This document shows, one piece after another, positions 2,350-56,462 of a DNA stretch of 64,000 nucleotides. The stretch is from Porphyridium purpureum (Eukaryota > Rhodophyta > Bangiophyceae > Porphyridiales > Porphyridiaceae). A program made the position numbers and the translations under genes. The notes under the pieces are model-generated. The model searched no databases and was not told where the DNA came from. It saw only the letters and a list, made by a program, of their open reading frames with translations. Each line of letters opens with the position of its first letter. Within the stretch, counting starts at the first letter, position 1. Where the stretch lies: NCBI GenBank assembly GCA_008690995.1, contig VRMN01000001.1:1798001-1862000 (forward strand). Reading direction: 5' to 3'.

Positions 2350-2508
2350 TGCTTGGCTTGAAGACGTGTGTATCGCTAGCTAATTCGAATAGAGCCTAGA
2401 ACAGGGGGGGCCAGCTTCTACTGGCTGCCCGGAATTCTCACCGCGCGCGGCAAGGATTTAGAATACGGGCAGGGATAGGGTGAGTCGATTTCGCCACACG
2501 CCCGCTCC

Positions 2509-4645: not shown

Positions 4646-6196
4646 ATGGGATCGTGTTTTAGCAAGGCGCCCGATAGTGCGGCCGCGCCCGCGGGTGGCG
4701 GCACGGCAAAGGGCGCGGCAAAGCCGGCGGCGGGCAGCGGGAAGAAGCTGAAGAAGCCCGTGCTGGAGAGTGCCAAGCTAGACCTGCTCGCGGATTACGA
4801 TCAGGGCAGGGTGCTCGGCAAGGGCGCGTTTGGCGTCGTCACGCTGGTCACAAAGAAGGGCAGCGGAGAGACTTTTGCGTGCAAGTCGTTGTCCAAGGTG
4901 AAGATGGTCACAAAGGAGGACGTCGAGGACGTGCGCAAGGAGGTGCGCATTCTAAACATCGTCAAGGGACATCCAAATATGGTCACGCTGATTGATCAGT
5001 ACGAGGATAACCACAAAGTGGACCTCATCATGGAGCTCTGCTCTGGTGGCGAGCTCTTTGATCGCATCATCCAAAGGGGCCATTATTCGGAGAAGGACGC
5101 GGCGGCGCTCATGCGCGTCATGTTGGACGTGATTGCGTACATGAACAAAAAGAACCTCATCCACCGCGACCTGAAACCGGAAAACTTTTTGCTTGACGGA
5201 CCTGGCGACGACGCCAAGCTTAAAGCAACCGACTTTGGCCTCAGTGCGGAACTCAAGGAGGGAGAGTTTGCCACCCTGCAGGTCGGCACGCCCGTGTATG
5301 TGGCTCCAGAAGTTCTCATGGGCAAGTACAATGAGAAATGCGACGTTTGGTCGCTTGGAGTCATCTTGTATATTCTGCTTTGCGGCCGTCCGCCATTCTA
5401 TGGAAAAACGGAGCACGATGAGCTGCGCGCCACGCTCGAAGGTAAGTACGACATGACGCGCGATCCGTGGCCCAGGATCTCTAAAGAAGCCAAAGAACTC
5501 GTTTCTGCCATGCTCACCATGGACATAAACAAGCGTCCACGGGCCGAAGAGTTGCTGAGCCACCCCTGGGTGAAGGAAGGTGGAGTTGCTCCAGACACGC
5601 CACTGGACGACGCGGTCAAGAAGGGTCTGAAGCAATTCAGCGCAATGAACAAGCTGAAGAAGCGCGCGCTCCAGGTGATGGGACAAAATCTGTCACCGGA
5701 GGAGCTCGCCGAGCTGCGGAAGATGTTCCACGCTGTCGATACCGACGGAAGCGGCTCAATCTCAGTCACAGAGTTAGCGACTGCGTTGCGTAAAGCAGGC
5801 AGTAATCTCACGGACTCTGATATGGACGATATGCTGAAAGCGTACGATGTTGATGGCGACGGAACAATCGATTATTCGGAGTTTGTGACCGCAATGACTA
5901 ACATTAACAAGATCAACACCGTGGAGAACATTGAGAAGGCGTTTGCCAAGTTTGACAAGGACGGCGATGGCACAATCACCGCAGAAGAAGTGATGGAAGC
6001 GCTCAAGGACTGCCACATCGACCTCGAGAAGGCCAAGGAAATCGTCAAGGAAGCGGACAAGAATAATGACGGCATGATCGATTATGAAGAATTTTACGAG
6101 ATGATGGTCAAAAAGGATGAGAATGTTCGACAAGGCGACGCTGCGAAGAAGAAGCGGTTGCCTACAGCACAAGACCTTCGTGCGGAGCAGCAGTAG
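4646..6196 (+). CDS. Calcium-dependent protein kinase (CDPK)
   Basis: This is a canonical CDPK of 516 residues: a Ser/Thr kinase, an autoinhibitory junction and four C-terminal EF-hands. The start at 4646 gives MGSCFSK, a textbook N-myristoylation (Gly2) plus palmitoylation (Cys4) site, so membrane attachment is likely; the upstream frame-extending start would hide it. Kinase motifs are GKGAFGVV, the ACKSL lysine, HRDLKPEN, DFG and the APE loop. The EF-hand loops begin DTDGSGS, DVDGDGT, DKDGDGT and DKNNDGM, each with Asp at position 1 and Glu at position 12, so all four should bind calcium. The kinase-to-EF-hand linker has the expected FSAMNKLKKRAL autoinhibitory/junction sequence. Confidence 0.95.
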   Translation: MGSCFSKAPDSAAAPAGGGTAKGAAKPAAGSGKKLKKPVLESAKLDLLADYDQGRVLGKGAFGVVTLVTKKGSGETFACKSLSKVKMVTKEDVEDVRKEVRILNIVKGHPNMVTLIDQYEDNHKVDLIMELCSGGELFDRIIQRGHYSEKDAAALMRVMLDVIAYMNKKNLIHRDLKPENFLLDGPGDDAKLKATDFGLSAELKEGEFATLQVGTPVYVAPEVLMGKYNEKCDVWSLGVILYILLCGRPPFYGKTEHDELRATLEGKYDMTRDPWPRISKEAKELVSAMLTMDINKRPRAEELLSHPWVKEGGVAPDTPLDDAVKKGLKQFSAMNKLKKRALQVMGQNLSPEELAELRKMFHAVDTDGSGSISVTELATALRKAGSNLTDSDMDDMLKAYDVDGDGTIDYSEFVTAMTNINKINTVENIEKAFAKFDKDGDGTITAEEVMEALKDCHIDLEKAKEIVKEADKNNDGMIDYEEFYEMMVKKDENVRQGDAAKKKRLPTAQDLRAEQQ

Positions 6197-6587
6197 CCGG
6201 CAACGACGCGAGCAGGCAACCATGTTTTAGCCGTGGAGACACTGATTTTGCTTCACAGGCTGGTTTGCGTTACCGAGTCGTGGGGGGCGAGCGCTTAAAA
6301 TGAAATAATTTCGGATGTGCCGGCTCTTTTCTTCTGGGTTCCGCACCGTATCTAAAAGTATTTTAGCATTCTCTCTACCTGCAGGAAACTGATTCCAAAA
6401 ATTTTTCTTAAAGTAAAACGAAACTTTATTCTTACTGCGTCCTACGGCCCCGTTTGCTATCGGTCTTTACTCTGCCTGATGCCAGATGCGGAACCTGCAA
6501 GAATGCCTCCGCTTGCTGCCTTTACTACCCTAGATTCACAGACACCTTGCCGAGCGGCGCCCTATGTTTTCTGCTCCGTAGTACGTA
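6197..6587. other. Convergent 3' intergenic region (CDPK / SmpB)
   Basis: Both flanking genes end here. The middle (about 6385-6435) is AT-rich, with the TTTTTCTTAAAG and AAACTTTATT stretches expected of 3' untranslated regions. No gene is seen. Confidence 0.45.
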
Positions 6588-7394
6588 CTAGCTGATGACG
6601 GTTTTCAAAGCACGCTGCAGGTCACGCTTCTGGTCCTTTTCTTTGAGCTCGCGGCGCTTGTCGTATAACTTGAGACCACGGGCCAGCGCGACTTGTATCT
6701 TCAGCCAGCCGCGGTCGTTGAAATAGCACTTGACTGGCACCAGCGTGAGACCCTGCTGCTCGGACTTTTGGCGCAACTTGAGAATGTCGCGTTTATGCAG
6801 CAGTACTTTCCTCGTGCGCTTTGGTTCGTGGTTGAAGAAGTTTGAGCAGAAGCTGTACTGCGAAATGTTGGCGTTGTACAGAAGCAACTCATTGCGCTTC
6901 GAAACGCGACAGTACGCGTCGCGTATTTGCATCTGGCCCATACGAACCGCTTTCACCTCGGTCCCCACGAGTTCCAGCCCGCCTTCGTACGTTTCCAAAA
7001 ATTCATACCGACTCCGCGCGAGCCGATTCTCGATCTGGACGCCATTCCAATCGCGCTTGCGCTTGCTTGCGCTGCCCTTCGCGGCCATCATTTCCACACT
7101 GCGCCTTCTCCCACCCACCGCACGAGCGCGAGACGAAGCAACATGACTACCACTAGCACTTCCGCGACGATCCAAACTCTGCGCACCGACATGCATTCTC
7201 ACAGGTTGACATTGCACGCGACGCGCAGGTCGATCAATGCGCCATGGCCGGGTATCCACGTCCGCGCGCCGCGACCATCCCTGCTTGCTACCCGCCAGAC
7301 ACACTGCCTTTGCGAGCCCACCCTTCCCGCACCCAGCCGGCTCACCGCCGCACACCCATTCCAACGCCACTCCTCCAGCTCCCACAAACCCCAT
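6588..7394 (-). CDS. smpB: SmpB, tmRNA-binding protein, probably plastid-targeted
   Basis: The last ~165 residues are a full SmpB: IENRLARSRYEFLETYEGG, a LVGTEVKAVR motif, LLYNANISQYSF, HEPKRTRKVLLHK, and a basic C-terminal tail with GLKLYDKRRELKEKDQKRDL. SmpB delivers tmRNA to stalled bacterial-type ribosomes. In this nucleus it should serve an organelle; red-algal plastids are known to encode tmRNA (ssrA). The start is uncertain. ATG 7394 gives MGFVGAGGV plus a ~100-residue presequence, resembling red-algal plastid transit peptides with a Phe close to the N-terminus, and it follows a GA-rich leader. ATG 7196 would give a shorter basic presequence. The family is secure; the targeting is inference. 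Confidence 0.9.
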   Translation of the reverse strand: MGFVGAGGVALEWVCGGEPAGCGKGGLAKAVCLAGSKQGWSRRADVDTRPWRIDRPARRVQCQPVRMHVGAQSLDRRGSASGSHVASSRARAVGGRRRSVEMMAAKGSASKRKRDWNGVQIENRLARSRYEFLETYEGGLELVGTEVKAVRMGQMQIRDAYCRVSKRNELLLYNANISQYSFCSNFFNHEPKRTRKVLLHKRDILKLRQKSEQQGLTLVPVKCYFNDRGWLKIQVALARGLKLYDKRRELKEKDQKRDLQRALKTVIS

Positions 7395-7815
7395 CACCTT
7401 GCCCACCCAACGCCCCTCACGTCGGTCACTCTCTACTCTCCCATCCTCTTCACGCTCTTTCCCCTTAACACCAAAAGCAGCGCCTCCTACAGTCATCACA
7501 CCGCGCACCCTACCAAAACCGCACCACGGTCATACCGTATGGCAGCGGAATGTCAGATTACAAAGGAATGTTGCATTGCAAAGGGAAGCTGGATGACAAA
7601 AGAATGTTGCATTTAAATGTGATTCTGCATTGCAATATCATGCCGAATTGGAATGCAATGGCGCATGGCGAATGGCGAATGGCGAATGCGGCCGGGGACG
7701 GGCTGTGGCGTGCGCGGCTGCGGGAAAGGGAGCAGAGAAAGAAGAGGACGGCAGGTTGGCCGGGGTTGACGCGGATGTGTGTGGGTTGTGAGTTGTGGGT
7801 GAGTGTGTGGGAGTG
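7395..7815. promoter_or_regulatory. Divergent promoter region between SmpB and Has1 genes
   Basis: The region between the two divergent start codons has a CT-rich stretch at about 7415-7470 (GA-rich for smpB) and a purine-rich stretch at about 7720-7760 (sense for the helicase). Short imperfect repeats of an AATGTTGCATT-like unit occur between about 7550 and 7635. No TATA box is evident. Confidence 0.35.
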
Positions 7816-9570
7816 ATGAAGAGGAAAGGGGGAGGAATTGCTGCTGCTACTGCTGCTGCTGGTGGTGGTGGTGGGTCGCGCGCCGGGAGTGGTGAGGACG
7901 GCGGCGACGGAGCGGCATGGGCCGGACAGAACGAGCGCAGAAGAAGCAAGGCTCGCAAAGTGGACGATGACGCCAGTGCTGCGGTGGCAGAGGAGGGTCG
8001 GGAACAGGTGCTTGGGGATGGCGCGCTGCCGCAAGAAGAGCAGAATGGCGCAGAAGGGTTGCATGAGCGTGACGAGACGCGCGTGGAAACGGACGAAGGA
8101 GGCATTCTCACAAAGCACGCCTTTGCTGGCTTGACGAATTTGTCGGAGCGCTCGCAGGCAGCGCTGAAGGAAATGGGCATTACATACATGACGGAGGTGC
8201 AAGCCAGGGTCTTGCCGCACGCTTTTCAGGGCCGCGACGTGCTTGCAGCCGCAAGAACGGGCTCTGGCAAGACGCTGGCGTTTCTGCTGCCCGTACTCGA
8301 GCTGTTGAATACCGTCAAGTGGAAAACCAGGAACGGAACGGGCGTGGTGATCATTTCGCCCACGCGGGAACTGGCCCTCCAGATTCATGGCGTGACGCGC
8401 GAACTCTTGAAGAACCACTCGCTGACTTTTGGATTGCTGATCGGCGGCGCGAATCGACGAATGGAGGCAGAGAAGCTGCAGAAGGGCGTCTCCATTGTCG
8501 TAGCAACACCGGGCAGACTGCTCGATCACTTGGAAAACACGCCCGGATTTCAGTACGGCAACCTCCAGGCGCTAGTTATTGACGAGGCTGATCGTGTCTT
8601 GGAGATCGGGTTTGAGGAGGATATCCAGCGCATTCTGCAGTTGCTTCCCAAAGAGCGCCAAACCATGTTGTTCAGTGCCACACAGACCACAAAAGTAGAG
8701 GATCTGGTGCGAGTTTCCTTCCGCTCAAAGCCCGTCTACGTCGGCGTAGACGATTCACGCGCAGTGGCCACGGCGACCGGGATCGAGCAAGGATTTGTGA
8801 TTGTACCGTCCGAACGGCGCTTTGTGCTGCTGTTCACCTTTCTGAAGAAAAACATGCAGAAGAAGGTGATTGTATTCATGAGCTCGTGCAATGCGGTCAA
8901 GTACTACGCGGAGCTTCTCAGCTTCATTGACATCCCAGTGCTCTCGCTCCACGGCAAACAGAAGCAGCAGAAGCGCACCGCGACATTCTTCGAATTCTGC
9001 AAGGCCAAGGCGGCCATCTTGGTGTGCACGGATGTGGCGGCGCGAGGGCTCGACATCCCCTCTGTGGACTGGATCATTCAGTTTGATCCGCCGGATGAGC
9101 CGAAGGAGTATATCCACCGCGTCGGGCGCACAGCACGAGGAACGAATTCCACCGGCCACGCGCTACTGTTCTTACTGCCGTCCGAGGTTGCGTTTCTCAA
9201 GTACTTGAAAGCGGCGCGCGTGCCGGTAAACGAGTACGACTTCCCCGAGTCAAAGCTGGCCAAGATTCAGCCGCAACTCGAACGACTGATTGAGAAGAAC
9301 TACTACTTGAACCGTAGCGCACGTGAAGCGTACCGCTCCTACATCATGTCGTACGCGTCACACAGCATGAAGCACGTCTTCGACGTGCAGCAGCTCGACC
9401 TCAAGGGCGTGGCACGGAGCTTTTGCTTCAGCGTGCCACCCAATGTGAACATCTCTTCGCTGGCAAACCACAAGGCACCCAAGCTCGAGCGCCGCAACGG
9501 CGGCGGCGGCCTCAAGAACAACAAGCGCAACTCGAAGCAAGACCGGCTGGCGATGCTGCTCCGCGACTGA
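7816..9570 (+). CDS. HAS1: DEAD-box ATP-dependent RNA helicase Has1/DDX18
   Basis: A 584-residue DEAD-box helicase of the Has1/DDX18 group, nucleolar in other eukaryotes and required for 40S and 60S ribosomal subunit biogenesis. Motifs in order: Q-motif region near [21 protein letters not shown] (I), PTRELALQI (Ia), [10 protein letters not shown] (Ib), [16 protein letters not shown] (II), SATQT (III), [13 protein letters not shown] (V) and HRVGRTARG (VI). The C-terminal block [12 protein letters not shown] matches the Has1-type extension. The N-terminus is Gly/Ala-rich with acidic patches. The first ATG in frame is at 7816; upstream codons are non-ATG. Confidence 0.95.
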
Positions 9571-29972: not shown

Positions 29973-31370
29973 AGTACGTGGAGTCGCGCCGTTTGCTTCC
30001 GCGGCAAGAGCGCAGAGAGACGCGCGCGGGGGCGCGGGGCAAACCCGAAATCTGCCTGCCTGACCCCCGACCGAAACCAGTGAAAGCCAGATCTACCCGG
30101 ACACGCGCGAGACTTCTACACTAGGTTGAACGACAAGACGGTCGAACGGCACCTGGCGAGTGCGTTTGTCCTCGCGCTCCAAGTGACCTTGAACCAACTA
30201 ACTCCGTTCTATCGCGTCTGCGCTTCTTCGCGAAGATAAACTTTTCCAGGGTGTCGTGTAGTGATCTCGAAGAAATCGAAGTGTCTGAGCTTGATGTTGG
30301 CACCACGGAGGCCGAACACAGCTTCACGGGGCGATCAGAAGCGACCGCATATACTGATCATGCCGCCAAAGGTGCTGGGTTGCCAGCAATGTGTGCGAAG
30401 AAGATGCATGGTAAACGGTAAGCTGTGACGCACGCGGTTTCCGGTAGTGCAAGCACGCCGAACGTTTGACGAAAACGGGGTTGAACTTTGCTCATGGCTG
30501 GACGGCGGCGTCCATCATTGAGTTGCGCTGAAAAGGTTTTTTCTCGATGGCGGTGGAATCAGTCGAGTCTGAAGGTCTTCGCTCGTGAAAATCTGCTGCG
30601 CCTTTCGTGTGAGTCTGACGGTCTGCGGGGACCAACTAACCTCATTCGACTCTTACGTTTTTGTTTCGCGCAAACCGTTCCTCCCTCTACCGGGTGGGGG
30701 TAACCTGTTAACGTCAATCACGGAGATGAAAACCCAGTCACACTAGAGCCTCCAGCGCTCTTCGCCGGGTGCCCCGTTGTTGAGCCACTTGAATCTCCAT
30801 GATGAGTACCGGTGCGCACGTATGTGCCAACTTGCGGGACACGCGGTGGACTGCACTCCCCGCGCAGCAAAGCGGCCAATAGCGTGCATGAGCAGTGGAA
30901 AAACTGGTGCACGCCGCAACAAGGGCACACGCGTGCATTGCTCACGCAAGACGAGACACGCCAGCAGAAACGCGCTGTTTCCACCTCCGGCACGCCGAGC
31001 CGCAGCGTGCGGATCCGGAACCCACCCTTGATAGGATTTTTGAATTGGCGGTGTTTTACTAGGCACTTTCGTTCGATTTATTAATTTTTTTTGTGTCGGC
31101 TGGTTCGTTCGTGAGTTTGAACGCCGGTGGTTGTTGGCGGGTACTTATTGGGGGACAGCACACCAGGTCGGTACGGACGATAGGGCTCGAAAAACGAAGA
31201 GAGAGAGAGAGAGAGAGACAGAGAGCCTGTGCGTGTGTGGGAGTGCGTTTGTCTCTTTTTGTCCCGGTTTGGTAAGAGGAAGAGAAAGTGAGCCGTTAGG
31301 TGCCGGGGTGGTCGCTGGTATACGGTGAGGCTTGGTTGGAGTGCTTAGTGTCCGCTGTTCACTAGGACAG
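29973..31370. other. Intergenic region before the trypsin-Hog gene
   Basis: Frames are short and unconvincing on both strands. A GA microsatellite lies at about 31199-31220, about 150 bases before the downstream start codon. No RNA gene or mobile element is recognised. Confidence 0.45.
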
Positions 31371-32972
31371 ATGGAGCGAACTGAGGGAAGCATGAGGCGG
31401 AGAAGTGGGAGACATCGAGTGGGCGGTGCATGTGGAATGGGTATGGTGGTGGTTTTGATGCTTGTTGGATTGATTTGCGCGTCTCGAGGTGGCGCGACGA
31501 GGCTTCCGCAGGAAGAGGGGAAGCGCAGTCGTGCGCCGGGGCTGAATGGTGCCATGTGGAACGATGGCGTGTCAGAGCTCGGCACGCGACGGTCGGGCAT
31601 GGCGCACGGCGCACAGCGTATTGTGAATGGCAAGCCCGCAGATCAAGGGGAGTACCCGTGGTTTACGGAGTTGTTCATTCAGTACGCCGACTTGAATACG
31701 CAGCTTACCTGCGGCGGCACGCTCGTCGCCTCGCGCTGGGTCTTGACTGCTGCGCATTGCATTCCGCTGGACGAAGGTATTCCATCTGGGATTGTCGTAT
31801 TGTATGACTCAATCGATACCGAGACAGGCAGCGAGGCCTTTGCCGTCAACGTGTACATACACCCCAACTGGAACGAAGTCTTGTTTGAATGGGATGCCGC
31901 CTTGATCGAACTCAGTGAAGACGTCAGCATTTCTACGTACGCACGGATTTTTGGCTTGGATACATCGGCAACTGGCGTGGATCTCGTCGGTGAGAGATCG
32001 ACCATCATTGGATTTGGGGATGTCGTTTCTGGCGGCCAAGGCTCAAACATTCTTCTAGAAGAGGATCTGTTCGTAGAGCCGGATAGCCTGTGCCGCGCCC
32101 TGTACAGCTTTCGTTTCCAATCAGAAAGTATGCTCTGCGCTGGGTATGAGCCTGAACCTCCCGCAGATACATGCCAGGGCGACAGCGGTGGTCCGCTGAT
32201 TCTCGGTGACGACACCGGAGAGAGTTCCCAAGACCGTCTTCAAATTGGAATAGTTTCCTTCGGAATTGGCTGTGCAGACCCTGATTATCCAGCTGCCGTG
32301 TACACGCGCCTTTCAGCGATAACAAGGTGGCTTGGTTGTGTGTTGCAGAGGCCCGGTTACGAAGATTGCGCTGATGAGTTTGAGCCCGATGTGCAAATTG
32401 AACGTGGTAATGGAGGTGGACTGGAGACTTGCTTCCCGGCGAACGGGCTCGTCGAGATGGAGGATGGCTCGTTCAAGCGAATGGATGCACTGAAAATAGG
32501 TGACATGGTGCGTGTGTCGTCTGAAGCCTTTAGCCCAGTTGTATTCTGGGGACACCACGATGCAGAAAGCGTCCACAGCGACTTTGTCCGAATCCAGCTC
32601 GAGCATCACAGCTTGACTGTCACCAGTGGGCATCTTGTTTACGCGAACGGTAAGCTGGTTGTGGCTGGGAGCGTCCAGCCTGGCGACATAATGATCACGG
32701 GAACCGGTGAAAGTGCGAGTGTTCTTTCGGTGCGTCGAAATGTGCGCGCCAAGGGGCTGTACAATCCGCACACTGCGCACGGTGACATCGTCGTGGATGG
32801 TGTGAGCGCATCGTGCTACACGCGATGGGTCGCTCCGGGTCTCGGTCACGCGCTACTGATCATTGAGCGCTTTTCGCGGAAGCTTTTTGGCCTGTCGCTC
32901 TTGGACACCTGGCTCGATGCCAACGCGCTATCCATTCCGCACCACTTGCTGCAAAGCACAGTTGCGTTCTAA
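31371..32972 (+). CDS. Secreted trypsin-like serine protease fused to a Hedgehog-type Hint (Hog) domain
   Basis: The protein has 533 residues from ATG 31371. A basic N-terminus and hydrophobic core (MVVVLMLVGLICASRGGA) form a signal peptide. Residues about 84-330 are an S1 protease: activation site at R83-IVNG, His129 in TAAHC, Asp175 in WDAALIEL, Ser272 in CQGDSGGPL. Asp six residues before the Ser predicts trypsin-like cleavage after Arg/Lys. From about 353 is a Hint domain of Hog type: ETCFPANGLVEMEDGSFKR with nucleophile Cys354, TSGHLVYANG (T-x-x-H, Thr418/His421), and AHGDIVVDGVSASCYTR with Cys482. A ~50-residue hydrophobic tail follows, where Hedgehog has its sterol- or adduct-recognition region. 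By analogy, self-cleavage before Cys354 would release the protease, perhaps linked to an adduct. ATG 31392 is an alternative start. Confidence 0.88.
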   Translation: MERTEGSMRRRSGRHRVGGACGMGMVVVLMLVGLICASRGGATRLPQEEGKRSRAPGLNGAMWNDGVSELGTRRSGMAHGAQRIVNGKPADQGEYPWFTELFIQYADLNTQLTCGGTLVASRWVLTAAHCIPLDEGIPSGIVVLYDSIDTETGSEAFAVNVYIHPNWNEVLFEWDAALIELSEDVSISTYARIFGLDTSATGVDLVGERSTIIGFGDVVSGGQGSNILLEEDLFVEPDSLCRALYSFRFQSESMLCAGYEPEPPADTCQGDSGGPLILGDDTGESSQDRLQIGIVSFGIGCADPDYPAAVYTRLSAITRWLGCVLQRPGYEDCADEFEPDVQIERGNGGGLETCFPANGLVEMEDGSFKRMDALKIGDMVRVSSEAFSPVVFWGHHDAESVHSDFVRIQLEHHSLTVTSGHLVYANGKLVVAGSVQPGDIMITGTGESASVLSVRRNVRAKGLYNPHTAHGDIVVDGVSASCYTRWVAPGLGHALLIIERFSRKLFGLSLLDTWLDANALSIPHHLLQSTVAF

Positions 32973-33273
32973 TGCGTCTTGGTTGGGTGCAGGCGGGCAT
33001 AATTTAGCTTCCAAAGAGTAGCCGGAAAGCTCGTTCCGCTGAGACCGAGAGGCGAGCGTACGTCCGATCCTATACCGCACATAGCCAGGAATCCGGGCAC
33101 GCTCTCGCTTGAGCCTCCGCATCGTGCCCTTTGGCGGTGTGCGGCCCCACCCGTTGCTGTGTCCTATTTAGTTTGCATACGTGCAGTTTTGGCGGCACTG
33201 TCAGCACGCGAGATAAATATCGCGCTTATTCTCTCGCGCAGTCGTAGTTCTCGTCTGGCTTGTGCAGTTTTCC

Positions 33274-34800
33274 TTATTGGTCATAAACTAATCCTTCAAT
33301 ATCGTTCCCAGTCAACGAAAGATTCACCAATTGGCCGTCCAGAGGGTCGCACAACGGGTCGTTGTTGACCTGTGATGAGACGCTTTGCAGATCAGCGTTT
33401 TTTCCCCCACCACGGACACATGATATCTGCGAGCCATCCGGATTACGCGCCGATCTCGCCATGGTATCTTTCTCGCTTGCGCCGCCAGCGGTCTTTTCGG
33501 GGTCTTCAGTGGCACCGTGCTCACGTTCTGGCGGGATCCAACTTTGACACCCCGGTGGGATCACCATTCTTTTAGTGCGACAGGAGGTTTGAACTATTGC
33601 CAACATGTCGTTGTTGAACACCATCGCAAGCACAACGCTCACGCGAGTCGCACGACCGCGTCACAAATATCCCGCCGTGACACTTTGAGCAAATGCTGAA
33701 CATCGCGGACCCTTCTGCTTGGTCCTTCTCGGATCCACAGACAAGATGATGTCCATTAAAACCTAATTCTTGGGCACAGCCGCACGTTGAAGCTCCTGCA
33801 TCAGACCTGTCGCAAGCGTGCACTGGGCCCGCGTCGAGCCGTTTTCGTCTTTGAAAACTTCAAAGCATGTCTGCGTGCAAAAGAAAGCATGCTGCGTGCG
33901 TTCAGTCGTGTTGTTGCGCATCCACAAAAGCCCGGGCGTTCCGCCACTATCTAAGCACATCCCAAACCCAATCAACGTGCGAGGAGCATTCCGATCGCGC
34001 TCCAGGTACGCGCGCTCTTTGGCTTCGAATCAAGCAGTTTTGACAGAGCTCAGGCTTCGACCCGTGCCGTCTGATGGAGTTGAGTGCAAGCACCACCGAC
34101 CTTGCCCCTTTGCATTCCAAACCTCAATCGTTTGCTCGTGAAACGTCGGCTTGCGACGCGGCGTTCGGGCTGGTCTACCGGAACCGTAGTCCCGTCTGCT
34201 TTCCTTTCGTCAATCCTTTTCCTGGTCATTGTGCACGATGTTATCAATCATTGAGTTATCTCGCTCGTATGCTCCGGGAAGAAATGCATGCCTGGCGTTC
34301 GGGTCCATGTCCAAAACACGCACGGGGTTGCCCACGAAGGGCTCGCAGGTTGGGACAGCCACGCGCACTCATCTCACTTGCTGGACATGTGTCGAGGTGT
34401 CGCGAAAACGGACACATGAAGCCCTGATTGGAGCCCCAAAGACATTGGCGCGATGGCATCTACGTGCAACTGCGGGCGCATGAGTACTTCAACAGTCAGA
34501 CGCGGACTACAACCGCGATCAGGCTCCACGGGATTGCAGAGATTCGACCCAACAATACAGGCGAACACCAAATGGACTTTGCCGTTTTCCTCTGGCACGC
34601 CGAGAACGAAGAAAAACAAAAGAAACCATCATGCGTTCATGGCACACGCAAGCGAGGCTGTTCAGCCATGACATTCCTCTGCAGTGACATTCGCACCATA
34701 TTCAATCACCGCTGCAACGCGCGCCTCGTGCTGTGGATCTGCCGCGGTTAACCAGGCTGTGCAGCCATCGCGATCCAAAGTATTTACGTCGGCTCTTTCC
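33274..34800 (-). pseudogene. Decayed ankyrin-repeat gene, possibly with a MYND-like zinc finger at its end
   Basis: On the minus strand, 34790-34665 reads DVNTLDRDGCTAWLTAADPQ followed by a HEARVAAVIEYGANV helix pair, one complete ankyrin repeat. An in-frame TGA (34662-34664) follows, and reading on continues into TASLACAMNA, the start of a next repeat. Farther down the strand, coding-like pieces appear in changing frames: a VAVPTCEPFVGNPVRVLDMD segment (about 34360-34300), TERTQHAFFCTQTCFEVFKD (33763-33975) and a Cys-rich FSICSKCHGGIFV piece (33572-33823) that could be the remnant of a MYND-type finger. The pieces share strand and order but not frame, so I read them as one broken gene. The ankyrin repeat is the firm part; its boundaries and the MYND idea are tentative. 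Confidence 0.45.
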
Positions 34801-35994
34801 GTCGCTCGTCCTGCGCGCACTGGCGAATGAGTCAAGTTGCCACAACACGTGGGCGTGCATGGGATGCAAGCAGTAGACGCGCGCTAGCGTAGCAAGTCAG
34901 CATAGATTCGTGCGCGCGCACGAGGGCAGCTTCTGTACCGAACGTGTCTGGTGCGTAACCAATTAATAGGTGGTCGATCGCTCACATGCTGGCGTCACAT
35001 TCACCCCGATACATATTCGAGGAACACTTTGCGTACTGACCGAATGACTCGCGGACCATTCGGCGCGGCGTCGTCGGGCTGAGAGCCGGTGGTCGGGAGA
35101 TGATTCCTTGCAAGCACGAGCTCGGATCTTATCATATTTTCGATCTCAATGCGGCCATGAACGTATCTGTTGTTGACGGGTGTGCGGGCATCGACGCTCT
35201 GCGCGGTGGCGCCGAACTTTCCTAGCACCCGAGGTTTCGACCTTTTCGCAACCTCTGATCGCGTGCGTGATATTGGTCCACCCCTCTTATCCTGCAGGAT
35301 CGCATCGATGAGATGGTTGCAAATCTGTCGGCGTCGGTGCGTCGCAAGAAAGTCGATGAATGGACCCAGGCTACTTTGCATCCGCCAGTGTGTCTCAACG
35401 GCACCAATTACAGCAACTCGGGAACGTGTTGCGCGGCTAATCGTCGTTCATACTTCCTCGCCTCGTACCGTGGATTGGGCGCCGAGCGAATGAGTCTTCG
35501 AGGCGTTGACCATGAAGCGCATGCGGTGGATGCAGACAACACAAAAGAAGAGTAGCGCCGCGCGGCAGTTGCCGCTGGCGGTGAGCGACAGCAGGAAGGA
35601 CGCGGCCTTCATTACCACGCACGAGTGCATGCTTCAGGGCGGGCGGATTCATTTACGGAGGAGGCAGCGACGAATCGCCATGATGTGATCGGAATGTAAG
35701 TCACGCACGCTACTTCATTCGCCGGTCACCGCTAGGCACGGGACCGGACACGAGCCAGCAGACAGGATCATTGTGTGTCTCTGACATAGGCTTGACAAGT
35801 AATGGTCGTGCGACTGGGCGAGCTCCATTGCTTTGTCTCATGTGCCTGCCTCCGCCGAATGATAGCGCCAAGCGGACGAGGCGGGAAAGACGCCCGTGCG
35901 TGCCGCATGCACGACAGCGCAGCTGCGCATCCAAGAAAGATTTTTGATTTATGCTTTGCGGGGGAAAACTCGCCCGGCCCGCGCGACTTTTCGA

Positions 35995-36142
35995 TCGGTG
36001 ACGACAATCAAAGCCCGTGGAAGAGCCCGGGCACCTCGCAGCCGCGCTCGGCCGGTGCGACGTCTCAGTCGGCGACGGCAATCAAGGTCCATGCAAGAAC
36101 CCGAGGGCCTCGCAACCGCGTTCGACCTTCAGCGACGTCTCT
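35995..36142. repeat. Imperfect tandem duplication, unit 74-75 bp, two copies
   Basis: The block starting TCGGTGACGACAATCAA at 35995 is repeated as TCGGCGACGGCAATCAA at 36069. The two units align along their length with scattered substitutions and an indel of about one base. Confidence 0.75.
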
Positions 36143-37712
36143 GCAACGGTTTTCGCGCATCGTCCCGCCTCATCCCCATCGGATGCGCTTACACAAGCCG
36201 CTGCTCCGCCACTGCCTATCCGCGCGGAAATCCCTCGAGAGTCAGAAAGAATGTTGGCCATCAGCACCGCCATGATGCTCGCTGCGAGTCGCACGCGCGT
36301 GCCCCGTTATTTCAGTATTCCCCCGGTGCGCTCAACCCTGATGCTCAACGAGCCTTCGCGATCGATCATCAACTCTCAACCGAATCGAAATTCCGAACTT
36401 CTTGTTGCGCCTACAGATCCTTCATCGTGCTGCGCGTGTTGCCGTAACCCTCGTCCCAAAAAAAGCTTGCCTTGGCGAGCTGAATCCTACGCACTCCCTC
36501 TCACAACTCACACCAGCTCACGACTCATATTCTACGCTCACGGCGCCGAATCCCTGCCGCGCGCGCATGTACGAACAAAGCAGCGCATGCCGACGCCAGC
36601 GAGAAGTGAGCGGCAGATATTTTCATGGCGCATGTGTGTGGCTGAAGCCGCTCGGGCGAGAAAACGGAGCGAGAAAAACAAATGCAACACACCAAAAAGC
36701 GGCGTGCTTTACATCTTTCTCTCTATCTCTCTCCTTTTCTCTCCGCGCATGCCTTCTGTGGCGTGTGCATCATGAGGACAACGATGAATGATCGAATCCA
36801 ATCCGATCCTCTTGTTGGTTTGTGCGTCGTCGCTTAAACAAGTTTGTATGTTTGTGTGTATCAAATCCACGATCCCACCACCAACTCTCCCCTCCTTCAA
36901 TCACGCCCACACAGCGATCCAACGCACAACCGCGTGGAGGATTATCATAAACCACGTGGAATTTTCTATGCACACGCCCACCAAACCCTCTTAAACAATC
37001 ACACAAACACACACAAAGAACTTTTACATGATTAGATTGTGGTTATGATGGTTTTAAGATGGTTTTACTATGGTGTTCTTGTGGTTTGTGAAGGGGGGGG
37101 GGGTTAGGTGTATGTTTTTTCCTATGTTTTGGCGCTTTGGGATGATGATAATGACGATGAAAGGTATCTAACTATCAAGGCGGCTGGTTTTTAGTAGACA
37201 CAGATTCCGATATCGACGTGTGTTTTTGGGGTATGTGCGAGACGTGTTGTCGATCGATATTTTTTTTATGTTCGGTGGTACCGGAATGGCTGCGTTTTAT
37301 GCTGTTGGTGGTGCGACTGGGTTGTGGGAAAGTTGTTGAGGAGGTGCCGCTGTTGAAGAGGAAGATGATGATGCAGGGGTCGGGGGTGTGAATGAAGAAG
37401 GGGGAAACTTGCATGAAGAGACGGGAAGGTGTTGAACAGTGTGAGCTGGCAACGCGTGCAGAGGTAGACGCGCGTGTGGCAGTATTTTGTGACGACGTGA
37501 GTGGCGCCCGCGCTGAGAAGATCGGGAGCGGCGCGACGTGTGGCGGCGGCAGTGCGTCGCAGTGGCACGGCTCTTGCGACGCGAGATAAGTGCTGGGAGC
37601 GAAGCGGTTCTGCGGCGAGTCGGCGACCGCAATCGGGCACGCGCAGCTGTGTGTGTGTGTGTGTCGATTTGTTTGGCGCGCAGGAAGGAGGGGTTTGCAG
37701 TCGCTGTCAAGG

Positions 37713-41715: not shown

Positions 41716-42196
41716 GGGCCTCGTCTTGTAGGTCCGCTGGTGTCGCGTGGCGCTGGTGGCGCCCTCACGCGTGGGGAGCGAGCGAGCGAGGGAGAGGGTT
41801 TCGGGCCGCCGCCCTGAATCGGCGCTCCGGCCGCTTTGAGAAGGGAATGGCTCGCATCTCGGTCCCAGTGTGGTTGCTGAAAAAGGTCAAGGAGACCAGG
41901 CATCGTCCTCGCCGCAACTCAAGTTTAGGACTTTCGTCGAGTAAGATGGTCAGACAAGTCACAGGAGCGAGAAAGCAACAACAACTTAGACAAGGTCATT
42001 CATGAGGACAGCATGCAAACGTGAAAATGTTGCGCTGGCCGAAACAAGGGGGCGGAATACGACAGCAAGTACCAAAGCACAGCACCAGCCGGCAAGGCCA
42101 AATGCCGCGCTCGTATTCCGTCAAGTATGAGTCGTGAGCAAGTGGGCAACGAGCGATCCCATCACACAGGCCTCAGCATCCGTGCGAAAGGCGATT

Positions 42197-43102
42197 CTAC
42201 TCGTCAGCGGGGGCAGCTACAAGCACGGCACTATTCCTGCGCTGCAAGTAGGTAAGTCCCGAGTGAACCCAACGAGGGCCGTAGGTTTGGGCGGCAACAA
42301 CTATGCGGTTCTCCAAGTCACTCCACACCGTGCCGCGATAGGAAACAGTCGTTACGCGGAGGCCGTGCTGGGTCGGCATCTTGTGCGAATCCATGTGCAG
42401 CACTCCATTGAAGCGACCGACTTTGGACAGGCATTCACGCTCAGCGCACACCTCTGCGTACGTGCGCAGGCTTGAGCGCCCGTCAATCGTGACTTCTAAT
42501 ATGTGATCTGGCGTGCCACACGGAAGTTCATCGAGTCCGGTGATGCACAGTAGCTCACCAATACCATCATTTGCGTGCACTTTCTGCAGCCCGCGCGCCT
42601 CGATCCACCCGGCTTCGATGCAAACAGGCGTTGGCGACGGTTCTGGTGCCGGCGTTGGCGACGGTGGCGACGGTGTTGGCGACGGTGTTGGCGTAGGCGT
42701 TGGCGTAGGCGTTGGCGTAGGCGTTGAGACTAATGTGCACGTACCCGACGTGAAAAACTCTTGCAAAGGCGGCATGAAGCAAACGTTGTTGTTCCGCTCG
42801 GTCACCTGAGCCGCCATGCCTTCGCAGTTCTCCGTAAGATACGTGCGCAAAATCCAACCGACCGTCTCGTCCTGTTCTGCGTTAAGCACGCATTCTGCAG
42901 AATTGTAAAAAGTGACCTCGCCAACTTGCTGCGGCAAGCAGTCACCCGGCAACCACGTCGTGCAGCTCAATGGCGTACCCATGCAGTCCTCCGTGGCGTA
43001 GTTGCACAATTCCACCATTGTCTGTGCGCGCACACTAATCGCACATACCCACACCGCGGCCACGAGCGCCAACCAAACCCCAAGCGCCTTCATCATGGCC
43101 AT
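42197..43102 (-). CDS. Secreted Cys-rich protein with Thr-Pro linker, copy A, unknown function
   Basis: The protein has 301 residues. A signal peptide (LGVWLALVAAVWVCAISVRA, cleavage probably after Ala-Gln) precedes an N-terminal Cys-rich domain (Cys in CNYATEDCMGTP, WLPGDCLP, NSAECVL, ENCEG, NNVCF, SGTC). A (Thr-Pro)n then Ser-Pro linker follows at about residues 128-160, typical of extracellular O-glycosylated spacers. The C-terminal domain begins CIEAGWIEARGLQ and contains LLCITGLDELPCGTP and AEVCAERECLSKVGRFNG. I do not recognise either domain. The architecture suggests a two-domain cell-surface or extracellular-matrix protein, for example binding wall polysaccharide, but that is only inference from layout. 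Starts ATG GCC ATG ATG. Confidence 0.8.
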   Translation of the reverse strand: MAMMKALGVWLALVAAVWVCAISVRAQTMVELCNYATEDCMGTPLSCTTWLPGDCLPQQVGEVTFYNSAECVLNAEQDETVGWILRTYLTENCEGMAAQVTERNNNVCFMPPLQEFFTSGTCTLVSTPTPTPTPTPTPTPSPTPSPPSPTPAPEPSPTPVCIEAGWIEARGLQKVHANDGIGELLCITGLDELPCGTPDHILEVTIDGRSSLRTYAEVCAERECLSKVGRFNGVLHMDSHKMPTQHGLRVTTVSYRGTVWSDLENRIVVAAQTYGPRWVHSGLTYLQRRNSAVLVAAPADE

Positions 43103-43229
43103 GCTCGCTCACTGCGTTCTGCTTCAAACGCACTTGCTCCTCCGTCTGTTGCCCGACTTTTTCCCCTGCTCCACCCTCGTCGACCAACTCCCGGATCTCC
43201 CCACTTCTGCTGCGTCGACCGCATCCGCA

Positions 43230-43238
43230 TTATATATC
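43230..43238 (-). promoter_or_regulatory. TATA-like box for copy A
   Basis: The minus strand reads AGATATATAATGCGG about 130 bases upstream of the start at 43102. The equivalent site is kept in copy B although the flanks have diverged. Confidence 0.5.
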
Positions 43239-44635
43239 TAGCAGCGCCCGTCTTTTCCGCAACGTGAGACGCTTTTCGAAGTCCAGCAAATGCAGTTAAT
43301 GAATCAACGACTTGGATCCCGCATCTTAACCTGCAGCATTTCAAGTGAACTCGCGTGTCCGGCTGTGGCAATAAACGGATTTGGGCCGAACGTGTGTGCC
43401 GCCCCGGCACGGCATTAACAAAAAACTGCACCGATCGCATAGACGCGCTCGCTGCGCACAACGGTAATGCAGCCTGCAAAGTCGGTGCTGGTTCGTTCGG
43501 TACTGTCTGCACCCGCCCGAACGTGGGATGCGACGGGCGAGGTAATGTATGCGTACGCGAACAGACTGCTTGTACGGCGCACGGATATGCAAGCGACGCG
43601 GCGACAATGGTTTGGTGTAGTCTGCACTGCACTTTTCGGCAAAGCTTCCGAGACAGTTAGACCTTTGGCAAGAAGGCGCTATGTCAGAACCATTGGTTCC
43701 ACTCAATTTTTGGCGGGTATTTGAGAAGTAAGGGCTCAAGGCCGGTCTGCAAGGTCTCGCAGTCCCTTCCTTGTCAACTTCCTCGCTCAAGCATAGTGCG
43801 TAGTGTGCTACGCGGTGGCAATCGGCGAACAACATTTCGGCACAACGCACAGAAATCTGGCACGGACCACGTTCAAGGTCCTTGCGGTGTGCGCCTTGTT
43901 TCTCATCGTATTTGCAGTTTTAACGAAAAACAGCAGACATCGGGTAATGTCTATGTGGCGCCCAGCTAATGACTTGGAAACCATTGGGGCATTCCATTCG
44001 CGGCGGAGCTGTTTCTGCCACCAGTACTTAGCCTTCCGACGCGTCAAAGTGACCTGAAGGAGCAAATGTATACCGCCGGGCAGTGATCTGGACAGGGATG
44101 CGCGCGTACCAAGAACGCCACTCCGTTCCGCAAACGGCCTTTTGCGGGCCTCGTCTTGTAGGTCCGCTGGTGTCGCGTGGCGCTGGTGGCGCTGGTGGCG
44201 CCCTCACGCGTGGAGAGAGAGAGAGAGAGAGAAAGAGTTTCGGGCCGCCGCCCTGAATCGGCGCTCCGGCCGCTTTGAGAAGGGAATGGCTCGCATCTCG
44301 GTCCCAGTGTGGTTGCTGAAAAAGGTCAAGGAGACCAGGCATCGTCCTCGCCGCAACTCAAGTTTAGGACTTTCGTCGAGTAAGATGGTCAGACAAGTCA
44401 CAGGAGCGAGAAAGCAACAACAATTTAGACAAGGTCATTCATGAGGACAGCATGCAAACGTGAAAATGTTGCGCTGGCCGAAACAAGGGGGCGGAATACG
44501 ACAGCAAGTACCAAAGCACAGCACCAGCCGGCAAGGCCAAATGCCGCGCTCGTATTCCGTCAAGTATGAGTCGTGAGCAAGTGGGCAACGAGCGATCCCA
44601 TCACACAGGCCTCAGCATCCGTGCGAAAGGCGATT

Positions 44636-45529
44636 CTACTCGTCAGCGGGGGCAGCTACAAGCACGGCACTGTTCCTGCGCTGCAAGTAGGTAAGTCCCG
44701 AGTGAACCCAACGAGGGCCGTAGGTTTGGGCGGCAACAACTATGCGGTTCTCCAAGTCACTCCACACCGTGCCGCGATAGGAAACAGTCGTTACGCGGAG
44801 GCCGTGCTGGGTCGGCATCTTGTGCGAATCCATGTGCAGCACTCCATTGAAGCGACCGACTTTGGACAGGCATTCACGCTCAGCGCACACCTCTGCGTAC
44901 GTGCGCAGGCTTGAGCGCCCGTCAATCGTGACTTCTAATATGTGATCTGGCGTGCCACACGGAAGTTCATCGAGTCCGGTGATGCACAGCAGCTCACCAA
45001 TACCATCATTTGCGTGCACTTTCTGCAGCCCGCGCGCCTCGATCCACTCGGCTTCGATGCAAACAGGAGTTGGCGTTGGCGACGGTGTTGACGACGGTGC
45101 CGCTGGTGTAAAGGCAGGCAACAGTATCGATGCACGCCTCGCCGCAGGCGTTGAGACGAATGTGCACGTTCCCGACGTGAAAAGCTCTTGCAAAGGCGGC
45201 GTGAAGCAAACGCTGTTGTTCCGCTCGGTCACCAGAATCGGCGTGCCTTCGCAATTCTTCGTATGATACGTGCGCAAAATCCAACCGACCGTCTCGTCCT
45301 GTTCTGCGTTAAGCACGCACTCTGCAGAATTGTAAAAAGTGACCTCGCCAACTGGCTGCGGCAAGCAGTCACCCGGCAACCACGCCATACACCTTGATGG
45401 TGTACCCATGCAGTCCTCCGTGGCGTAGTTGCACAATTCTACCATTGTCTGTGCGCGCACACTAATCGCACATACCCACACCGCGGCCACGAGCGCCAAC
45501 CAATCCCCAAGCGCCTTCATCATGGCCAT
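44636..45529 (-). CDS. Secreted Cys-rich protein, copy B, unknown function
   Basis: The protein has 297 residues and is the paralogue of copy A (42197-43102). The C-terminal domain is almost residue-for-residue identical (Glu for Gly at the CIEAEWIEA position is the main change). The mature N-terminal domain differs at roughly 20 positions (for example GTPSRCMAWLPG against GTPLSCTTWLPG). The linker is rebuilt: the Thr-Pro run is replaced by an AARRASILLPAFTPAAPSS-type segment before TPSPTPTP. All the cysteines of copy A are present and there is one signal peptide. Function is unknown. Confidence 0.8.
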   Translation of the reverse strand: MAMMKALGDWLALVAAVWVCAISVRAQTMVELCNYATEDCMGTPSRCMAWLPGDCLPQPVGEVTFYNSAECVLNAEQDETVGWILRTYHTKNCEGTPILVTERNNSVCFTPPLQELFTSGTCTFVSTPAARRASILLPAFTPAAPSSTPSPTPTPVCIEAEWIEARGLQKVHANDGIGELLCITGLDELPCGTPDHILEVTIDGRSSLRTYAEVCAERECLSKVGRFNGVLHMDSHKMPTQHGLRVTTVSYRGTVWSDLENRIVVAAQTYGPRWVHSGLTYLQRRNSAVLVAAPADE

Positions 45530-45655
45530 GCTCGCTCACTGCGTTCTGCTTCAAACGCACTAGCTCCTCCGTCTGTTGCCCGACTCTTTTCCCCTGATCC
45601 ACCCTCGTCGGCCAAACCCCGGGTCGCCCGGTTCCGCTGTGTCGACCAGATCCGC

Positions 45656-45664
45656 AATATATAT
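45656..45664 (-). promoter_or_regulatory. TATA-like box for copy B
   Basis: GGATATATATTGCGG on the minus strand, about 130 bases upstream of the start at 45529, mirrors the site in unit 1. Confidence 0.5.
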
Positions 45665-46734
45665 CCAGCAGCGCCCATCCTTCCGTCGACGTGTCACGAA
45701 TCACAAAGTGCAGCAGGTGCGGCGAATGTAGCAAAGACCTCGATAACGCGCCTTGATCTCCACCTTTCGGGGTGGACACGCGCTTCCCGTGAAATGGAAG
45801 AGATTCAGACCTGACGCGGTAGACACCGTGCACTGTACTAATAAATTGTACCGATGACACCAACGCAAAGTGGCTCCCAACGATAATGCAGCCTGCGAAC
45901 TTGGTGCTAGCTGGGACAGCACCCGTCTGTCGAAAGTCTAATCTCGGATGCGACGGATGTGTAGAAATGCGCGTACGCGAAGAGATTGCTGGCAAGACGC
46001 ACGGGTATGCAAGCGACGCGGCGACGATGGTTTGGTGTAGTCTGCACTGCACTTTTCGGCAAAGCTTCCGAGACAGTTAGACCTTTGGCAAGAAGGCGCT
46101 ATGTCAGAACCATTGGTTCCACTCAATTTTTGGCGGGTATTTGAGAAGTGAGGGCTCAAGGCCGGTCTGCAAGGTCTCGCAGTCCCTTCCTTGTCAACTT
46201 CCTCGCTCAAGCATAGTGCGTAGTGTGCTACGCGGTGGCAATCGGCGAACAACATTTCGGCACAACACACAGAAATCTGGCACGGACCACGTTCAAGGTC
46301 CTTGCGGTGTGCGCGTTGTTTCTCATCGTATTTGCAGTTTTAACGAAAAACAGCAGACATCGGGCAATGTCTATGTGGCGCCCAGCTAATGACTTGGAAA
46401 CCATTGGGGCATTCTATTCGCGGCGGAGCTGTTTCTGCCACCAGTACTTAGCCTTCCGATGCGTCAAAGTGACCTGAAGGAGCAAATGTATACCGCCGGG
46501 CAGTGATCTCGACAGGGATGCGCGCGTACCAAGAACGCCACTCCTTTCCGCAAACAGCCTTTCATGTGACCAGCAAGAGGCATCATTTCAGCCCCAAGAC
46601 GAGCCCCGGCCTCTTTGCCTTCTACATTTGCACCGGCCACCTATTGTGCCGGACTGACGCAGCCGCAGATGAACAGGTCGTCCCCGCACGCATGACACGC
46701 CCAACCAGGTTCCAAGCAACCACCATATCGATAT

Positions 46735-54995: not shown

Positions 54996-56462
54996 TTACT
55001 TCGAGACGGAAGTTCCAGTTCCGGTGTTCGTCCATTCTAAATGCGGATTGCAGGACGTCCGCTTCATTTTGTATGGAACGCCTCGGCGATTACCGTACAC
55101 AAAATGGCCGTTTTCGTCAAAGCCACGATCGTTCACCCACAGCTCATTCCCCGTCAGGATCAAGTCATCCTTGACGAGAATCCGACTCTTCATCGTCGGC
55201 GAGAACACTGTGCACCCGCCGCCCGCCATGAAGCCGCGGAAAAAGAAAGGGCCTATGATCTCGGACTGTTCCAACGCCTGCGCTGTCTTGAACTTGCGCC
55301 GCTCCCAAAACACTTCACAACCTTGCAACCACTCGTACAGGTCGTCACCAGTCCAGTCAATCTCGTTAATACGATAGCCGCACGCACGCAGCCGGGCTTC
55401 CGTTTCTGCATAAAAGCGATAAATGCGCATCTCAATCACGCCCTTATCGTCGCTGTCGTCCAAAAATATTTCGTACACGCGAGCACGATACACCGAGTTC
55501 GGGTCGCCGTTGAAATAGTACTTTGCGAAAATCATGCTCGAATTTTCGCCAATGCGAGACAGCTTGCAGTGAATGTGCTCGTGTCCACCGCCTTCACCCT
55601 CCGTAAAGCCTAGGCGCTTGTTCTCCAGCACTTGGTCGTAGTTGTCAAAGTCACCTTCAAATGACGTCATGAAAAGGTCCAAATTGCGCTGCGCCATGGC
55701 GCGCCTCAACATCCTCCGTGCCACATTCTCCGGCGAGTATGGCGAGCTCCAGCTCGTACGCGCCGGAATACGCTGTGCGTCAGGATCGATATCGCCACAT
55801 GTACTGCACGGCGCGGCGTCTTCGCTGCGAGCCGGCCCCGTTCGCTTGCGCTCCATTTTCCACTTGATCTCCAGCACCGAGTCGGTCAAGAGCCCGCCCT
55901 CATAAAATGCATCTGCGTCTATTTCGCTCTCGCTGTCCTTTGCGAGCTCCGAAGAATGCGAATCGCGCTGCTCGCGGAGTGCAGCCGCCGCGCGGCGCGC
56001 GGAAAGCACGGCAGGCGACGCCGACGCCTGCCCGCGCGCATCTAAGCTCATGAACCCTCGCATGCCTTCAGATTCTCGCTGAGAGCCACCCAGACCATTG
56101 CGCATTTCCTGCAAGTCCAGCTCCTCCGCGGGGTGTACGGGCGCGCTATTGGATTCAATTGCTGCCAGTTCCGAGCTTGTCATGTGATACAGACTATCCT
56201 GTTCGCCTTCTCCCTCAGGCTGCAAAACGAATGATGACGCCGTCGTCTCATTTCCGCCTCTCTCTGTACACGCACACGTCACCCAGCGCAATGAGGCGCA
56301 CCGCCTCCGGATCACCGCGAGCCCGCGTCCACGATGAAGCACAGACGCAGCTCGAGATGTCGACGCTGTAGGTGTGGGCACGAACCAGAGAGTTGGTCGT
56401 GAGGAACTCCCGCTCGTACACCATGCGCATACCGCCAGTTTCCCCTCGCTGCTGCCGCCCAT
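54996..56462 (-). CDS. CpeT/CpcT-family phycobiliprotein chromophore lyase with long N-terminal extension
   Basis: The protein has 488 residues. The C-terminal ~240 residues are a CpcT/CpeT domain: FEGDFDNYDQVLENKRLGF, EHIHCKLSRIGENSSMIF, YRARVYEIFLD, a MRIYRFY segment, LQGCEVFWERR, and an ILVKDDLILTGNELWVNDRG then GNRRGVPYKM end. The fold binds bilins and attaches them to cysteine of phycobiliprotein beta subunits, so this is a phycobilisome maturation enzyme and strong evidence for a phycobilisome-bearing host. The N-terminal half is low-complexity; residues 1-70 (with LWFVPTPTASTSRAA) could be a plastid transit peptide. The first real ATG is 56462; an ATG at about 56184 (MTSSELAA) is an alternative. 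Confidence 0.85.
   Translation of the reverse strand: MGGSSEGKLAVCAWCTSGSSSRPTLWFVPTPTASTSRAASVLHRGRGLAVIRRRCASLRWVTCACTERGGNETTASSFVLQPEGEGEQDSLYHMTSSELAAIESNSAPVHPAEELDLQEMRNGLGGSQRESEGMRGFMSLDARGQASASPAVLSARRAAAALREQRDSHSSELAKDSESEIDADAFYEGGLLTDSVLEIKWKMERKRTGPARSEDAAPCSTCGDIDPDAQRIPARTSWSSPYSPENVARRMLRRAMAQRNLDLFMTSFEGDFDNYDQVLENKRLGFTEGEGGGHEHIHCKLSRIGENSSMIFAKYYFNGDPNSVYRARVYEIFLDDSDDKGVIEMRIYRFYAETEARLRACGYRINEIDWTGDDLYEWLQGCEVFWERRKFKTAQALEQSEIIGPFFFRGFMAGGGCTVFSPTMKSRILVKDDLILTGNELWVNDRGFDENGHFVYGNRRGVPYKMKRTSCNPHLEWTNTGTGTSVSK

Follow-up and report, generated by a model that had tools for sequence, protein, structure and literature searches.

The window, which is the whole stretch of 64,000 nucleotides of Porphyridium purpureum DNA analysed here, carries on its forward strand an ORF of 533 amino acids in which an S1 protease is followed by a Hedgehog-type Hint domain. 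The ORF lies where the earlier note had placed it, begins with an ATG at 31371, ends with a stop codon at 32970–32972 and is a single frame that requires no intron. The following features are assigned within it, in window coordinates:

31371..32972, + strand: whole ORF of 533 aa with signal region, propeptide, S1 protease, linker and Hog domain (Pfam, codon usage)
31371..31499, + strand: N-terminal signal region, residues 1–43 (hydropathy; predicted cut site)
31500..31619, + strand: basic propeptide, residues 44–83 (pI 11.3), up to the presumed activation site Arg83/Ile84
31620..32333, + strand: S1 (trypsin) domain, residues 84–321 (PF00089, PDB matches, alignments)
31755–31757, + strand: triad His129, in TAAHC at 126–130
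31893–31895, + strand: triad Asp175, in WDAAL at 174–178
32184–32186, + strand: triad Ser272, in GDSGGP at 270–275
32334..32429, + strand: linker, residues 322–353, with Cys323 and Cys333
32430..32822, + strand: Hint part of the Hog domain, residues 354–484 (PF01079, alignments, model, fold match)
32430–32432, + strand: Cys354, nucleophile position, aligned with Drosophila C258
32553–32555, + strand: His395, general-base position, aligned with Drosophila D303
32622–32633, + strand: T418xxH421 (TVTSGH, 416–421), aligned with T326 and H329
32814–32816, + strand: Cys482 in SCYT (481–484), aligned with C400
32823..32969, + strand: adduct/sterol-recognition-like tail, residues 485–533 (sequence, low-confidence model, motif literature)

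The frame is free of stop codons from 31329 to 32969 and both the Trypsin and Hint parts lie inside it, which at the level of sequence points to one gene and not two. Over its full length the ORF has a codon-usage score of 0.156 bits per codon in frame, and the scores of all five other frames are negative. The S1 part scores 0.179 and the Hint part 0.167 bits per codon, and these three values fall inside the range of 0.125–0.468 shown by the 12 window genes that formed the training set. The fusion of a trypsin with a Hedgehog-type Hint domain, first proposed from the letters of the sequence, is supported by family profiles and alignment, by a model in which the Hint core folds, and by a fold search of the PDB. 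The ORF has no NCBIfam match at E 1, and no second S1 or Hog stretch was found by phmmer (E 10) in window frames of at least 30 codons.

The surrounding genes include a complex I 30 kDa subunit, an EF-Tu-like protein, a CDPK-like kinase, ArfGap, VID27 and Myb. A CpeT/CpcT phycobilin-lyase homologue (54996–56462, − strand, E 2.2e-16) has about 265 extra N-terminal residues, and an SmpB (6588–7496, − strand, E 8.4e-51) with about 150 extra N-terminal residues is probably an organelle-targeted trans-translation factor. The gene set as a whole is eukaryote-like and fits an intron-poor alga with phycobilins. A tandem duplication at 41747–46245, with a spacing of about 2.4 kb and 300-nt blocks that are 91–97% identical, carries two small secreted-looking Cys-containing proteins (42197–43102 and 44636–45529, − strand) that are 86% identical and differ in variable Pro/Thr linkers; one exhibits no Pfam match at E 0.01 and the other only a Kazal match below the cut-off. 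The 4 kb or so directly downstream of the fusion gene (32973–37174) contain no ATG-initiated ORF of at least 240 aa. The window contains neither a tRNA nor an Rfam match that reaches the gathering score.

The signal region is predicted from a hydrophobic core at residues 23–37 (MGMVVVLMLVGLICA), whose hydropathy of 2.79 is the highest of any 15-residue stretch in the protein and is consistent with the signal peptide that had been suggested. Met8 and Met23 are alternative starts within this region. At the boundary of the propeptide and the S1 domain, a script located the motif R83-I84VNG. In alignments with solved trypsin-type enzymes, Ile84 falls on residue 1 of the mature chain, and Arg83/Ile84 is presumed to be an activation site of the usual kind.

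The S1 domain matches the Pfam Trypsin family (PF00089) over the entire model (residues 84–321, E 1.2e-38, model positions 1–220 of 220), with a score of 133.6 bits against a cut-off of 20.6. The full catalytic triad and the Asp of trypsin specificity, both named in the earlier note, are found as His129, Asp175, Ser272 and Asp266, the last being the first residue of a DTCQ motif and occupying chymotrypsin position 189. Gly298 fits pocket position 216, while the alignments give Ala (Ala308 or Ala309) for Gly at pocket position 226, with a one-residue insertion; positions 216 and 226 follow the chymotrypsin numbering. Given the Ala at 226 and the extra residue, Lys/Arg specificity of this domain is likely rather than certain, and this change affects specificity and not S1 membership. 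The closest solved S1 domain by sequence in the PDB search is that of TMPRSS6 (E 9.4e-31), and trypsin 3i77 is matched at E 3.3e-28. The mature S1 half and linker together are strongly acidic, with 44 Asp and Glu residues, 11 Lys and Arg residues and a pI of 4.05. No Pfam family besides S1 types matches the N-terminal half at E 10, and the Hedge signalling domain is absent from it.

The only basic residues of the linker are Arg327 and Arg345, of which Arg345 sits nine residues ahead of Cys354, and a Gly-rich run (GNGGGLET) precedes the expected cleavage site. A trypsin-type cut at Arg345 could shed the protease from any anchor. The residue directly before Cys354 is Thr353 and not the Gly of Hedgehog, as had been read at the outset. 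A beta-branched residue at this −1 position should slow both the formation of the thioester and the attack on it.

The Pfam Hint family (PF01079) matches residues 352–504 (E 4.1e-26, model positions 11–181 of 213) with 92.3 bits, far above its cut-off of 29.7; the next profiles are Vint (13.5) and Hint_2 (13.1). A search of this part of the protein against Hint models had been suggested as a check, and its result favours the Hog assignment. A phmmer comparison exhibited homology with Drosophila Hedgehog structures (6tyy, E 2.1e-7; 6td6, E 1.1e-6; 1at0, E 4.2e-6), and the Smith-Waterman score of the Hog part against Drosophila Hedgehog is 127, where 1000 shuffles give a mean of 29, a standard deviation of 4.7 and a maximum of 56. 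When combinations of matrix and gap cost were varied over 48 alignment settings, Cys354, Thr418, His421 and Cys482 fell on Drosophila C258, T326, H329 and C400 in all 48, which bears out the Cys at the Hint start, the TxxH and the late Cys of the DGVSASCYT block that had been picked out by eye.

His395 falls on the general base of Hedgehog, D303 (Hint position D46), in the same 48 of 48 settings. The placement of this column may be off by one or two residues, which makes the neighbours His396 and Asp397 less likely candidates, and the aligned position itself is without Asp; the expectation of an Asp there derives from Hedgehog Hogs. The proposal that the protein carries exactly the residues used by Hedgehog therefore stands for Cys1, the TxxH and the late Cys, and falls for the general-base Asp, which is replaced by His, and for the −1 Gly, which is replaced by Thr. 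In Hedgehog, the D303H substitution is reported to keep structure and activity (PMC9163320), and to increase activity on coprostanol and epicoprostanol more than 200- and 300-fold, respectively (PMC9163320, a review). Since D303H is reported as active on a broader set of sterols, His395 is compatible with transfer, and by analogy it may point to a different or wider range of sterols here. The idea that His395 is a lone oddity was dropped because in bacterial and viral Hints a His is also frequent in the next column (16 of 38 ungapped rows), so that His may be an old state and not a novelty.

Prediction of residues 84–533 from the single sequence gave no usable model (mean pLDDT 32). With an alignment of 24 distant Hint rows the Hint core folds with a mean pLDDT of 71, in a model that leans towards bacterial and viral Hints since all 24 rows are of such origin. 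The 10-residue block means over residues 356–455 are 84–93, with one of 67; those over residues 466–485, including SCYT, are 57 and 41, and the SCYT loop and tail have a pLDDT of about 37–65. Foldseek groups the model with BIL, intein and Hedgehog structures. The Hedgehog D46H variant and wild type (6tyy/1at0) have the highest query-normalised TM-score among the matches listed (0.58, with 29–30% identity), while by E-value the BIL2 and gp41-1 structures rank slightly ahead of Hedgehog. When the alignment was used as a profile against the PDB, BIL domains and inteins came ahead of Hedgehog (6tyy, E 2.9e-10), an order that is expected where 24 of 25 rows are of that kind and is counted neither way.

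The Hint class was assigned by comparison with 52 stretches from 37 viral and bacterial loci (L001–L037). Of these, 36 extend to the end of the domain, and a terminal His-Asn is present in 31 of the 36 and in 17 of 20 whole domains; SCY occurs in none of the 52. Three bacterial or viral Hint proteins scanned with Pfam matched PT-HINT or intein-like families first. Among 285 Omnitrophota genomes, PF01079 has some match in 20 and a match above the cut-off in 7; none of the 43 matches passes model position 141, whereas the window domain reaches position 181 of 213. Membership of the intein or BIL group was rejected, as the terminal His-Asn is absent and DGVSASCYT is instead followed by the tail. 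The SCY block, the reach to model position 181 and the lack of His-Asn together identify the window domain, by its sequence, as a Hog-type Hint and not a splicing or pretoxin Hint.

In searches for relatives, the viral contigs gave four loci that matched over 28 query residues and one over 70; in the genome contigs, a two-row alignment found none and a single protein as query found one Omnitrophota locus; annotated phages gave no relative at E 0.01. The window S1 domain has no phmmer match at E 0.01 in the 561 frames of the 37 loci with their short flanks. Four viral contigs (L001–L004, ORF 3210–5417) encode an identical 735-aa protein with two tandem Hints near its C-terminal end. One Omnitrophota locus (L006) encodes two large neighbouring proteins (1916–4420 and 4443–7895) with signal-like N-termini. 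One of them exhibits a weak GH2 match below the cut-off and has a PT-HINT C-terminus; the other has a HEYGH motif, no peptidase family match at E 0.01 and an intein-like C-terminus.

The tail had been described as hydrophobic, and this description does not hold: it is amphipathic and not membrane-spanning, with a top 15-residue hydropathy of 0.89 against 2.79 in the signal region. The helical moment is 0.41–0.50 over residues 484–510, and helices are modelled, with low confidence, at about 492–506, 510–520 and 524–532. The HPR motif of human SHH (H374, P379, R381) lies in the first tail helix and is followed by L382, L386 and L390, and the HWY motif lies in the region of the second helix (PMC7906309, PMC7242414). 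At the spacing of HPR the tail here has His493, Ile498 in place of Pro, and Arg500, followed by Phe501, Leu505 and Ser509, and HWY was not found in residues 485–533. The helices of the sterol-recognition region (SRR) are described as amphipathic with no predicted bilayer span, and human SHH without the second helix loses cholesterol transfer and keeps thiol cleavage (PMC7242414). A survey of Hog proteins places motifs K and L primarily in Hedgehog Hogs and motifs J and K in untruncated red algal Hogs (PMC2362128); we equate motif K with the HPR stretch and motif L with HWY. The likeness of the amphipathic tail to the SRR helices counts for sterol transfer, and the loss of the HPR Pro and of HWY weakens it; the chief reasons for caution are the Thr at −1 and the lack of HWY.

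The reading preferred here, to which we give a nearly even chance, is that of a secreted trypsin-type zymogen whose C-terminal Hog domain cleaves between Thr353 and Cys354 and transfers the protease half onto a sterol-like alcohol, by analogy with Hedgehog. In the secretory pathway, Cys354 would attack the Thr353 carbonyl to form a thioester (N-to-S acyl shift). The amphipathic tail would bring the precursor to the membrane and deliver a sterol or similar alcohol, which would be activated by His395 at the position of the Hedgehog general-base Asp. The protease half would then depart with the adduct on Thr353, and removal of the basic propeptide at Arg83/Ile84, possibly by an enzyme of the same type, would yield an active protease at the cell surface. 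The protease could be released later by trypsin-type cleavage at Arg345, within the Gly-rich linker. The more specific proposal that a catalytically complete zymogen forms an ester between its own C-terminus and a sterol or other alcohol by means of a natural His-for-Asp base, outside animals, is more tentative, and the balance leans against it.

Several observations bear on this self-processing zymogen. Two of its 12 Cys residues lie in the signal region, eight in the S1 domain and linker, and two in the Hog domain, both of them catalytic; this layout, with an even number in the S1 domain and linker, counts for a self-processing secreted zymogen. Cholesterolysis proceeds with the N-terminal half of Hedgehog as a bystander, for which other proteins can be substituted (PMC4695875), so a trypsin in its place poses no problem for the chemistry. 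Ergosterol, a C27 delta5,22 sterol and others are listed for the Porphyridiophyceae in a review table (PMC6315552), and sterol partners would therefore exist; the available part of a second review gives no sterol content for red microalgae (PMC9693049).

A rather unlikely alternative, though the strongest of the rivals, is that the Hog domain cleaves before Cys354 and that water, a thiol or an amine resolves the thioester, which would release a soluble protease and make the domain a timed-release or a folding and trafficking module. Such an outcome would suit the Thr at −1, the absent HWY and the lost Pro of HPR, and it has precedents in SHH lacking the second SRR helix, where thiol-induced cleavage persists without sterol transfer (PMC7242414), and in the slow Gly-Cys hydrolysis of Hedgehog precursors (PMC13060885). 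Against it, the first stretch of the tail is still amphipathic, the His and Arg of HPR are kept, and a His able to act as a general base is present.

That the Hog domain is inactive in autoprocessing and serves as a passive tail for retention in a membrane or the Golgi, from which tryptic cuts at Arg345 free the protease, is improbable. The position of Arg345 within the Gly-rich linker would allow it, and the Hedgehog residues are altered at two places (Asp46 to His, −1 Gly to Thr); however, Cys1, the TxxH and the late Cys are all kept, although an idle domain need not keep them, and the Hint profile score is high. Transfer to a non-sterol alcohol, such as a hydroxyl of the extracellular polysaccharide or another lipid, would anchor the protease in the mucilage and not in the membrane. 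For the nematode relatives of Hog, cholesterol is only one candidate for the adduct since their tail differs, which is the origin of the name ARR (PMC2362128); the tail here differs too, and a His at position 46 widens the choice of substrate. The features of the first helix are nevertheless still similar to those of the sterol region, and this transfer is distinctly improbable. Finally, the notion that the fusion of trypsin with Hog exists on paper only, as an artefact of two separate genes or of an intron left unspliced, draws on the indecisive codon statistics of the 32-codon linker (0.18 in frame vs 0.187 in frame +1) and is very improbable, given one frame without a stop from 31329 to 32969 across both domains, the similar codon support of the S1 and Hint halves, and a distance of only 32 codons from S1 to Cys354 in which no second start or stop is needed.

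The zymogen with its putative sterol-transferring Hog domain resembles animal Hedgehog in its secreted N-terminal half, its Hint domain with Cys1, TxxH and SCY, its amphipathic tail and its fold (1at0/6tyy). Unlike Hedgehog, it has an S1 protease in place of Hedge, His for D46, Thr for the −1 Gly and no HWY. A peptidase ancestry has been proposed for the Hedgehog N-terminal domain, which a peptidase ahead of a Hog domain recalls, but the fold is unrelated (PMC6027127).

Hog proteins, often secreted, are also reported from red algae, mosses, alveolates, jakobids and others (Burglin 2008, PMC2362128). Complete non-Hedgehog Hogs of protists, red algae and mosses often consist of a signal peptide, a variable N-terminus and the Hog domain, as does the window protein, and these N-termini rarely match known domains; according to that survey, distinct N-terminal domains occur only in fungal GIN1 (GTPase-like) and choanoflagellate Hoglet (cellulose-binding). 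The red algal Hogs have motifs J and K, of which motif K appears to be partly kept in the window protein, and they differ in motif J, whose Cys is Ser, Thr or Asp in them and Cys here (PMC2362128). Cyanidiophyceae carry Hog and kelch+Hog genes, and haploid cells express most of them more highly, as for 8 of 10 such genes in one species. These proteins are likewise red algal and some have a recognisable partner domain, which is kelch-like and of unknown function there and a protease here (PMC13353863). In the open-licence literature, among the papers listed and in the text available, no trypsin-Hog fusion was found, and eukaryote domain databases may list the architecture uncommented; one sequence with the S1 plus Hog architecture was found.

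The function of Hog proteins outside animals is described as unknown (PMC13353863), and their mostly unrecognisable N-terminal halves gave no obvious assay product. An enzyme partner with a simple assay would allow cleavage, anchoring and activity to be traced in one molecule, and the His that occurs naturally in place of the general-base Asp would be a test of the sterols that such domains accept. If the sterol-transfer reading is true, the protein would be a naturally occurring equivalent of the engineered D46H domain of Hedgehog, and it would show how self-attachment of lipid was put to use earlier than, or independently of, Hedgehog signalling. The bacterial and viral Hint, BIL and PT-HINT domains share the Hint fold, Cys1 and TxxH with the window domain, and are C-terminal in both ORFs of the L006 locus; they mostly end in His-Asn and have no SCY in the set compared, whereas the window domain has SCYT and no His-Asn. 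Membrane-anchored S1 proteases, with TMPRSS6 as the nearest solved S1 sequence, share the idea of a trypsin-type protease anchored at the cell surface. Their anchor is a transmembrane helix in the TMPRSS type and GPI in the GPI-anchored type, whereas the anchor of the window protein would be an adduct placed by its own Hog domain.
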